Source of the DNA: Nitrososphaerales archaeon
Lineage (GTDB): Archaea > Thermoproteota > Nitrososphaeria > Nitrososphaerales > Gagatemarchaeaceae
Direction: 5' to 3'
DNA length: 11,613 bases
Assembly (NCBI GenBank): GCA_030044375.1
Contig: JASHVX010000064.1
Location: forward strand, 1 to 11,613
Shown: positions 9,040 to 11,236 of the stretch, piece by piece
Numbering within the stretch: the first letter of the stretch is position 1
Layout of the letters: every line of letters starts with the position of its first letter
Position numbers and translations under genes: made by a program
Notes under the pieces: generated by a model
What the model was told of the DNA's origin: nothing
The model's input: only the letters and a program-made list of their open reading frames with translations
Databases searched by the model: none

Positions 9040-9630
9040 CTAGTAGATCGCCAGATGCGCCATTATGAGGATGATTATCACCTGGAATACTGCCTGGCTC
9101 GCCGCGAGCCTGACGTTCCTTATCGTCAGCTTGGAGATAAGCCCGGGGTCTGGCTTCGCCTTTGCGAGCTCCAGAAAGATCCTGACGCCGTTAGGAAGGA
9201 AGACGCCAAAGCCCTGAGCGACGAGGATGAGCACCACGACACCGGCAGCCATTATCCACACGCTGTGGAGGTCGAACTTGCCGAAGTCCTGTGCAAGGTA
9301 GATTCCTGAGGTTATAGCCGTCGAGGCGAGGGAGGGAATGATGAAGAAGGTCGTCGGCGTAAGCCTCTTCGCAATCTCGACTCGCGCAGGCACTTCAAGA
9401 GACCTGAGTATCTGAGACATCACCAGACCCATGTACAGGTCGAAGCCGGTCCAAGTGCCCCCTGTAATCACATGGACGTAGTCGAGGAGCAGCACGCTCT
9501 TGGACACCAAGGCGACGACGAGGACGACCGGAGGTACGATTCCAATCGCGAAGCTCCATCTGAGGAGCTTCTTTGTGAACGGCGGCAGCGTCGAAGTTGC
9601 GCCTTGCGCCTGGCCCTGAGCCTGAGCCAC
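9040..9630 (-). CDS. Five-helix integral membrane protein, DUF2269-like
   Basis: 196 residues, GTG start. After a Gln/Gly/Ala-rich soluble N-terminus come about five membrane helices (approximately 25-50, 57-77, 92-112, 124-146 and 175-196). Helix boundaries carry DYVHVITGGTWTGFDLYMG and later TPTTFFIIPSLASTAITSGIYL. The HV...GG.W.G pattern resembles DUF2269/CopD-like predicted membrane proteins, in which the His may bind heme or metal; this assignment is tentative. It is the first gene of the operon. A TATA-like palindrome centres 26-27 bases before the GTG, supporting a leaderless mRNA. A GGTGA lies 6 bases before the GTG and would act as SD only if transcription starts further upstream. 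Confidence 0.75.
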   Translation of the reverse strand: MAQAQGQAQGATSTLPPFTKKLLRWSFAIGIVPPVVLVVALVSKSVLLLDYVHVITGGTWTGFDLYMGLVMSQILRSLEVPARVEIAKRLTPTTFFIIPSLASTAITSGIYLAQDFGKFDLHSVWIMAAGVVVLILVAQGFGVFLPNGVRIFLELAKAKPDPGLISKLTIRNVRLAASQAVFQVIIILIMAHLAIY

Positions 9631-9649
9631 GGTCTCTCACCCAGACCTC

Positions 9650-9663
9650 CCCTTTCAAAAGGG
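9650..9663 (-). promoter_or_regulatory. Perfect 14-bp palindrome on the TATA position of the membrane operon
   Basis: Plus strand CCCTTT-CA-AAAGGG: exact 6-bp arms around 2 bases. Its centre is 26-27 bases upstream of the GTG at 9630, so its AT core serves as TATA box. The symmetry could also bind a dimeric regulator that blocks promoter recognition. Confidence 0.45.
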
Positions 9664-9697
9664 CTTGGGCCAAGCGCGAGCGTACGAAGTGGTCGGG

Positions 9698-9775
9698 CTA
9701 GTCCCCTTTGCTCGCTTCCTGTCCCGTGCTGCCTTTCTCGTCACAGCAGTTGCAACAGCAGCAACAACACGCCAT
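9698..9775 (-). CDS. Poly-cysteine microprotein (25 residues)
   Basis: ATG at 9775 to TAG at 9698-9700. The peptide begins MACCCCCCNCCDEKGSTGQ and ends EASKGD: eight cysteines in positions 3-11, then a short acidic, hydrophilic tail. I know no named family with this pattern. Dense thiolates suggest binding of soft metals (Zn, Cu, Fe-S, Hg) or a thiol redox role, as in metallothionein-like peptides, or membrane attachment through acylated cysteines; all are inference. Signals support it as a gene: GGAGGAGG (9783-9790) with 7 bases to ATG, and an AATAAAT box placed for a leader of about 14 bases. Its direct neighbour downstream is the membrane operon, with a separate promoter. The main doubt is that the Cys run could be a trinucleotide repeat by chance. 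Confidence 0.7.
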   Translation of the reverse strand: MACCCCCCNCCDEKGSTGQEASKGD

Positions 9776-9782
9776 ATTATCG

Positions 9783-9790
9783 CCTCCTCC
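9783..9790 (-). promoter_or_regulatory. Double SD of the poly-cysteine gene
   Basis: Minus strand GGAGGAGG, ending 7 bases before the ATG at 9775. It is among the best SD sequences in the window, and it stands before a gene with its own promoter rather than inside an operon. Confidence 0.65.
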
Positions 9791-9810
9791 ACAGTGTATT
9801 GGACGGCAGT

Positions 9811-9833
9811 GATTTATTGACTGACCGGGGTCA
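9811..9833 (-). promoter_or_regulatory. TATA box and adjacent palindrome of the poly-cysteine gene
   Basis: Minus strand AATAAAT (9812-9818) predicts transcription from about 9789, just before the SD. Directly upstream lies TGACC-GG-GGTCA (9822-9833 on the plus strand), a perfect inverted repeat occupying the BRE side of the promoter. This is a plausible operator for a dimeric regulator. Confidence 0.45.
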
Positions 9834-10471: not shown

Positions 10472-11236
10472 GTGCGGACCTATACCACAGACATGTATGA
10501 AGGGATGCTCGCAGAGACTGTCGTCGTTGACGCCCACAAGGGCTTGCGGACCAACGCGTACTTCGCGCGCCCGCTCGGCGCCGGGCCCTTCCCAGGCGTC
10601 GTGTTGATCCACCACAGGCCGGGGTGGGACGAGTGGTACAAGGAAGCCACGAGGAAGTTCGCCTACCACGGGTACCTGGCCATCTGCCCCGATCTGTACT
10701 TCGGATTCGGGCACGGCACTCCCGAGGAGGTTACTGCCAAGATGCGTGCCGCCGGAGGCGTGACTGACGACGACGTCGTAGCCGATGTAGCGAGCGCAAC
10801 GGCCTACCTGAAGTCGCTCCCCACTTCAAACGGAAAGGTGGCGGGGTTCGGTTCCTGCTCTGGCGGGCGTCACGTGTTCCTAGTCGCGTGCAGGACGAAG
10901 GCGCTGGACGCAGCCGTCGACTGTTGGGGAGGGTCCGTGGTAATGAAGAAGGAAGACCTCGTACCCAATGCGCCTGTCTCTCCCTTGGACTACGCGTCAG
11001 GCCTCTCATGCCCCTTACTCGGCCTGTTCGGAAACGAGGACCGGAACCCCGGACCGGAGATGGTGGACCAGATCGAGGCCGAGCTGAAGAGGCTGGGAAA
11101 ACCATACGAGTTCCACAGGTATCAGGGCGCAGGACACGGCTTCTTCTACTACCACTCGCCCACCTACAGGCAGGAGCAGGCGGTCGACGGGTGGAGCAAG
11201 ATATGGTCGTTCCTGGAGAAGAACCTGGGCTCGTGA
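10472..11236 (+). CDS. Dienelactone hydrolase family protein
   Basis: 254 residues, GTG start. Alpha/beta-hydrolase with the thiol triad characteristic of dienelactone hydrolases: C129 in GSCSGG (family form G-x-C-x-G-G), D190 in LFGNED, H222 in GAGHGFF. The loop HHRPGWDEWYKE after the first core strand holds acidic residues where the family has the Glu that activates the Cys. The family opens cyclic esters such as dienelactone in chlorocatechol breakdown, but most members, this one included, have unknown natural substrates, and no ring-cleavage genes are nearby. No signal peptide, so cytosolic. The GTG at 10472 is preferred over the ATG at 10493 because a GCTTAAC box (10441-10447) lies about 27 bases upstream. 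A secreted-protein gene follows after 25 bases. Confidence 0.92.
   Translation: MRTYTTDMYEGMLAETVVVDAHKGLRTNAYFARPLGAGPFPGVVLIHHRPGWDEWYKEATRKFAYHGYLAICPDLYFGFGHGTPEEVTAKMRAAGGVTDDDVVADVASATAYLKSLPTSNGKVAGFGSCSGGRHVFLVACRTKALDAAVDCWGGSVVMKKEDLVPNAPVSPLDYASGLSCPLLGLFGNEDRNPGPEMVDQIEAELKRLGKPYEFHRYQGAGHGFFYYHSPTYRQEQAVDGWSKIWSFLEKNLGS

Follow-up and report, generated by a model that had tools for sequence, protein, structure and literature searches.

A poly-cysteine microprotein of Nitrososphaerales archaea, probably a tiny trap for arsenic or metal

The window ORF and its relatives

The DNA analysed here, a stretch of 11,613 nucleotides from a Nitrososphaerales archaeon (the window), carries on its minus strand an open reading frame (ORF) that is too small for most gene finders and contains six contiguous cysteine codons. 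The ORF and its surroundings are as follows:

9698–9775, minus strand: poly-cysteine microprotein ORF, ATG start, TAG stop, 25 amino acids, C6-N-C2 and a mildly acidic tail
9783–9790, minus strand: Shine-Dalgarno-like sequence (SD) GGAGGAGG, recognised from the sequence, ending 7 nt before the ATG
9812–9821, minus strand: regulon element GTCAATAAAT, single copy in the assembly, beginning 46 nt before the ATG
9040–9630, minus strand: next gene, 196 amino acids, hydrophobic by eye, beginning 67 nt after the ORF

Translation of 9698–9775 (minus strand) gives MACCCCCCNCCDEKGSTGQEASKGD. The eight cysteines are residues 3–8 and 10–11, just as an earlier sequence-only reading had placed them (six, N, two, within the first eleven residues), and are encoded by both TGT and TGC. 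The tail, which that reading called soluble and acidic, is acidic but only mildly so, with four acidic against two basic residues. Runs of five TGY triplets occur in the 943,725-bp assembly solely in this ORF (two overlapping matches). It is also the sole ORF of the window with six cysteines within 16 residues, a strict rule that returned no ORF from 43 control loci (278,606 strand-bases). A looser rule, used at the winged-helix loci described below (five cysteines among the 22 N-terminal residues, with CTG accepted as a start), returned six ORFs from the same control loci.

The 196-amino-acid gene is possibly cotranscribed with the window ORF and lies outside the conserved unit; none of its relatives that were fetched has a poly-cysteine ORF alongside. 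In the closest relative found, where a neighbouring gene is 87% identical at the amino acid level, DNA similarity ends at window base 9674 and there is no cysteine-rich ORF at that place. This relative has its own member of the microprotein family at a winged-helix locus, L039.

The starting pattern, six TGY triplets, was searched in 31 genomes of the genus and found in eight. Seven of these genomes, among them that of the window, have it inside a short ORF consisting of a start codon, at most one further residue, the cysteine run and a short tail. Six of these seven ORFs contain a second CC block; L026 has eight cysteines in one run and no second block. In the eighth genome (L028) the run falls in an unrelated reading frame. 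In the six genomes other than the window's, the microprotein ORF is located 3′ of a gene of about 80 codons encoding a cysteine-rich winged-helix (wHTH) protein.

This wHTH gene is present in 13 of the 31 genus genomes, in 14 copies. From a larger group, 400 genomes of the order were taken; a search with an alignment of these copies matched at least 123 of them at E≤0.001. Thirty-one matches, belonging to families f1 and f9, were strong (E≤1.3e-24); among the matches listed, the next best had an E-value of 3.1e-11 and the weaker ones lay mostly inside longer open frames. Kinship among the MAGs inflates all counts of loci, elements and genes given here. A microprotein of 15–29 amino acids with 6–12 cysteines lies directly downstream of the wHTH gene in 21 of the 31 strong loci (20 by script, L066 by eye), and still in 15 of 25 (14 by script) when the six loci first found by the poly-cysteine pattern are left out; the chance expectation, calculated from the looser control rate, is 0.24 microproteins in 31 stretches. 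Among the ten loci where it is absent, L068 has arsM there, L044 has a CLCCCC tail on the wHTH protein itself and eight have neither. The wHTH proteins of L044 (1501–1734, genome G012) and L084 end in ...YRSLCLCCCC, as if a poly-cysteine tail were fused to the regulator, and other microprotein-free wHTH proteins end in KCDC or SLCTC.

Together with the window ORF the family has 22 members, each with 6–12 cysteines and zero to two F, W, Y or H residues. Exactly eight cysteines are found in 12 of the 22 (13 if L057 is read from GTG), and contiguous runs include C6 in the window and C10 in L067. The members from L037 and L057 were read from an in-frame codon other than GTG, and those from L058 and L069 from CTG; exact N-termini are provisional, because many members could also start at a GTG that lies within the SD. 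The cysteine codons over the 22 members are mixed, 69 TGT and 101 TGC. The central claim of the sequence-only reading, a real and conserved microprotein with expression signals, is supported: relatives keep the cysteine-rich ORF, the mixed codons and the spacing of the start. A Pfam-A scan of three members found no model, and a PDB search with the window peptide no chain, at E≤1. The literature searched on poly-cysteine proteins, archaeal metallothioneins, cysteine-rich microproteins, arsM of Thaumarchaeota and related subjects contained nothing on such a family.

The winged-helix gene and the control element

The conserved element upstream of the window ORF is GTCAATAAAT(A), written GTCAATAAATA for the regulon, and it stands about where an archaeal TATA box would be expected. 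The sequence-only reading had called it a TATA box; the sequence is indeed conserved, but is better described as an element common to wHTH, arsM, MIP-channel and SelW-like genes. In the 31 genus genomes, GTCAATAAAT has 28 matches in 18 genomes, as compared to 12 for the same pattern read backward. Fourteen matches lie upstream of the 14 wHTH copies, three upstream of arsM, one upstream of an Rdx/SelW-like gene and one upstream of the window ORF. The other nine fit neither wHTH, ars-type gene nor window ORF: two precede agmatinase-like genes (by eye) and seven lie elsewhere. At these agmatinase-like genes (L105 in G014 and L107 in G009) the element stands 53 and 32 nt upstream, and there is no strong wHTH match. 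In 24 further genomes chosen for the search, GTCAATAAATA occurs 34 times, spread over 20 genomes, and the control 6 times. The 34 copies are located at wHTH genes (16), arsM (9), MIP channels (3) and elsewhere (6, one without a locus). In the window's own assembly, GTCAATAAAT and its backward control have one match each.

The exact element precedes 30 of the 31 strong wHTH genes, that is all 14 genus copies and 16 of the 17 copies from other genomes, the seventeenth having GTCTATAAAT. In L066 the element lies far from the wHTH start, at about 97 nt. A second copy is found where the wHTH gene ends or close by, before the microprotein. The distance from this copy to the microprotein start has a median of 46 nt in 19 loci, 12 of which fall at 43–47 nt, and the value for the window ORF is 46 nt. 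Where the element is present at the wHTH end, the microprotein is found in 20 of 23 loci, as opposed to one of eight loci where it is absent (L043; Fisher test, 3.3e-4, with L066 added by hand). The window microprotein has kept the element, yet is placed apart from any wHTH gene of the associated family; none was found in the window genome, which is 72% complete. Likewise, genomes G004 and G070 bear the element at ars-type genes, yet neither yielded a wHTH of this family.

Most wHTH proteins have a CC near the N-terminus, and cysteines 28 and 32 are invariant or nearly so. The predicted structure is a winged helix (pLDDT 82) in which the N-terminal cysteine region is poorly predicted, and Foldseek returned generic winged-helix matches, none at E≤0.001. 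Membership of the ArsR/SmtB family was considered and is not supported by Pfam, which prefers MarR/TrmB-like models in the three members scanned. TrmB (2.3e-5, below the cut-off) and PF22798 lead in L033 and L039, and MarR_2 passes the cut-off in L044; PF01022 appears at E 0.11 in L044 and is unlisted for L033 and L039. The wHTH protein is a probable regulator, and its co-location and cysteine content suggest that it may bind the element and sense As(III).

The 22 wHTH loci that were named belong by title to Thaumarchaeota or Nitrososphaerales (12), an 'archaeon', a 'bacterium', Thermoplasmata (5), Aenigmatarchaeota (2) and Archaeon HR02 (1). The eight loci from the last three groups are weaker matches, and the pattern in these loci outside Nitrososphaerales is partial. 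In three Thermoplasmata loci, GTCAATAAATA is found exactly at the wHTH end and is followed by a protein of 85–93 amino acids with SCCS and a C-terminal SCxCFDK:

L089, 3258–3515: small cysteine protein 3′ of the wHTH gene
L092, 3215–3481: small cysteine protein 3′ of the wHTH gene
L094, 3235–3516: small cysteine protein 3′ of the wHTH gene

Upstream of the wHTH gene, L092 and L090 have the exact element and L089 and L091 a version with one mismatch; a version with one mismatch is also found at the wHTH end in L095. Among these eight loci, nothing close to the element was found in L088 and L093.

Arsenic-handling genes that carry the element

The genus yielded three stand-alone arsM genes, each with the element upstream; three further matches are parts of open frames of 569–599 amino acids. 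An order-wide search gave 21 arsM matches in families f1 and f9. Among those that are stand-alone, at least 45% identical and testable, 14 of 15 have the element, 12 as exact GTCAATAAAT and two (L169, L172) with one mismatch. It is absent from L205, a stand-alone arsM-like gene (50% identity), from L206 (38% identity, 285-amino-acid frame) and from four arsM-like matches in longer open frames; L175, at a contig end, lies outside the 15 testable genes. For arsM of other families, the element was found in none of the 15 loci examined (best, 3–5 mismatches; the place of L176 was assumed). The difference between 14 of 15 and none of 15 gives a Fisher value of 2e-7 (5e-7 counting L206), kinship being ignored. 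L205 (G089:C152:74500–75900) has SSCCCGSD near its start, and the other arsM of the same genome carries the element.

Two arsM proteins match NF008823 (arsenite methyltransferase) with E-values of 2.4e-75 and 1.1e-73 and scores of 253.6 and 248 as compared to a curated cut-off of 263; a third, cut protein gave a weaker match and the remaining ones are named by similarity. Two of the proteins from the three element-bearing MIP-channel genes were scanned and match TIGR00861 (E 1.9e-40 and 2.4e-38; scores 139 and 132, cut-off 171). According to a passage in PMC6205960, aquaglyceroporins act as channels for arsenite, and arsM can lie next to arsR. In genome G004, the element lies upstream of a SelW/Rdx-like protein ending in GNPCC (L113, 1208–1477; PF10262 above cut-off), and an ArsR/SmtB gene and acr3 follow on the same strand, beyond 600 unannotated bases.

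Stand-alone arsM is present in just three of the 13 wHTH-bearing genus genomes, and the arsenic link is therefore indirect where only wHTH and microprotein are seen. The efflux gene acr3 is found in 12 of the 31 genus genomes, two of which have the wHTH gene. Both genes occur in 2 genomes, wHTH only in 11, acr3 only in 10 and neither in 8 (Fisher p 0.03; p 0.057 in the 17 genomes at least 88% complete). In these related and incomplete genomes, the complementary distribution is no more than suggestive, and would fit two alternative ways to cope with arsenic.

Near the window ORF, a dienelactone-hydrolase-family gene (10472–11236) has a close relative, by eye, in genome G041 (L119, 2220–2993), beside arsM and acr3. 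The element-bearing window ORF and the G041 arsM thus lie near the same kind of neighbour. The window 196-amino-acid protein showed no homology to the small protein of membrane type whose gene adjoins arsM in L119.

A thiol trap and its alternatives

Sequence comparison establishes the microprotein family, its usual place 3′ of the cysteine-rich wHTH gene and the common element. The control element shared with arsM, channel and efflux-linked genes points, with exceptions, to membership of an arsenic regulon. Since it shares this control sequence with arsenic-handling genes, the poly-cysteine microprotein probably serves as a tiny trap for arsenic or metal, and we consider it reasonably likely that the window ORF in particular encodes a minimal thiol trap for metal or metalloid within an arsenic-type regulon. 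It would then be a very small metallothionein-like thiol peptide of the regulon marked by GTCAATAAATA. The wHTH protein would bind the element near the position of the archaeal TATA box, and As(III), or a soft metal(loid) like it, on binding its cysteines (CC near the N-terminus, C28, C32), would change expression. The microprotein would then be made, and its 6–12 thiols would bind the metal(loid) and either buffer it or pass it on, presumably in trithiolate sites if the ligand is As(III). From the sequence data we infer translation, metal binding, arsenic induction and the direction of control. The soft-metal role proposed in the sequence-only reading gains support as a probable one. The general Fe-S, Cu/Zn or thiol-buffer roles that it also offered are less favoured than arsenic-type thiol chemistry, because the element is common to wHTH, arsM, MIP-channel and SelW-like genes. 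A broader picture is somewhat harder to credit and is offered tentatively: a hitherto undescribed archaeal arsenic-response system in which a MarR/TrmB-like cysteine-wHTH acts on GTCAATAAATA and a near pure-thiol microprotein is a primary detoxifier able to replace Acr3 efflux, with wHTH and element relatives in Thermoplasmata controlling a different small cysteine protein.

The main rival, which we regard as unlikely though deserving serious attention, is that a thiol peptide of this kind handles a different soft metal (Cu(I), Cd, Hg or Zn) or general thiol stress, with arsM and MIP belonging to a broader regulon. Cysteine clusters bind many soft metals, and small fungal metallothioneins with seven cysteines take up about six Cu(I) according to a passage in PMC13107397. 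In L086, the wHTH gene is preceded by genes for a heavy-metal P-type ATPase and a DUF1326 protein, and most microprotein-bearing genus genomes gave no stand-alone arsM. However, the annotated genes that, beside wHTH, most often bear the element are arsM and MIP channels, one SelW-like gene bears it near acr3, and the link of the L086 ATPase gene to the element remains putative. Somewhat less probable again is that the microprotein works together with the wHTH protein, as an anti-repressor or a shuttle bringing metal to the regulator, which would be compatible with a thiol trap. It mostly adjoins the wHTH gene, and the CLCCCC end in L044 and the KCDC or SLCTC ends of others can be read as fusions; yet the window copy is not next to any wHTH gene of the family, and an element and SD of its own make the microprotein look separately controlled.

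We find it very unlikely that the ORF is a leader peptide for cysteine starvation, in which ribosomes stalled at cysteine codons would alter expression of the downstream gene. Cysteine codons are dense near the start, the 196-amino-acid gene lies on the same strand 67 nt downstream, and polycysteine short ORFs of mycobacteria (Canestrari 2020, as cited in PMC9094748) provide a precedent. Such cysteine-sensing attenuation fails because the downstream gene varies (Alba-like behind a TATA-like site, cyclophilin-like on the opposite strand, both by eye, and others), relatives of the 196-amino-acid gene have no poly-cysteine ORF alongside and the RNA fold of 9590–9775 is ordinary (z −0.82; equalled or bettered by 40 of 200 shuffled sequences). 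The mycobacterial ORFs are also, by their title, leaderless, whereas the window ORF has an SD. A candidate attenuator pairing seen by eye, CCCTTTT/AAAGGGG near the SD of the next gene, was rejected: its second arm is absent from the closest relative found and the fold is unremarkable. An attenuator short ORF of the polycysteine type was likewise rejected, given the SD, the element 46 nt before the start, the variable downstream gene and the z value. Least credible of all, and hardly to be entertained, is that the ORF arose by chance in a simple repeat of TGY type. One of the eight genus genomes with six TGY triplets (L028) does have the run in an unrelated frame, but cysteine-rich ORFs are found at 15 of 25 wHTH loci chosen without regard to cysteine content, against about 0.2 expected; spacing and element are conserved, and the cysteine blocks are split by varied linkers rather than forming a single repeat.

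If a thiol trap of arsenic type is correct, archaea would have a metallothionein-like peptide of extreme composition and known genetic context, with six cysteines in a row, tied to arsenic handling in little-studied Nitrososphaerales of soil and groundwater. Naming a regulator and a DNA element would make it testable, and the element can reveal genes below the size limit of annotation.

All 22 members have the composition of metallothioneins (less than about 100 amino acids, high cysteine, few aromatics), with metal binding as a prediction; no sequence match to a described family was found with Pfam-A (three members) or PDB (window peptide). The closest likeness is to the small fungal metallothioneins of family I (Neurospora crassa, Agaricus bisporus, 7 Cys), which are similarly tiny and rich in cysteine with almost no aromatics, and both are probably metal-inducible. 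Fungal metallothioneins have spaced CxC motifs; the microprotein differs from them in its contiguous cysteines, archaeal host, position beside a wHTH gene and element in common with arsM. SmtB-SmtA and ArsR-type systems are pairs of a metalloregulator and an effector, which resembles a small cysteine winged-helix gene and a cysteine-rich effector under a common element, except that the wHTH protein falls outside the ArsR/SmtB family, with Pfam preferring MarR/TrmB-like models. ArsD is a folded protein of over 100 amino acids, as opposed to the 25 of the microprotein. As an arsenite metallochaperone (PMC6205960), it is likewise an ars-type regulon product, possibly with As(III) on thiols. The mycobacterial polycysteine ORFs (Canestrari 2020, cited in PMC9094748) are also short with dense cysteine codons; as cited there, they are leaderless and attenuate operon genes, whereas the window ORF has an SD, its own element and no fixed downstream gene. 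Small cysteine-rich metal peptides are already known, and what is new, within what was searched, is the contiguous cysteine runs, the archaeal host, the pairing with a wHTH gene and the element.
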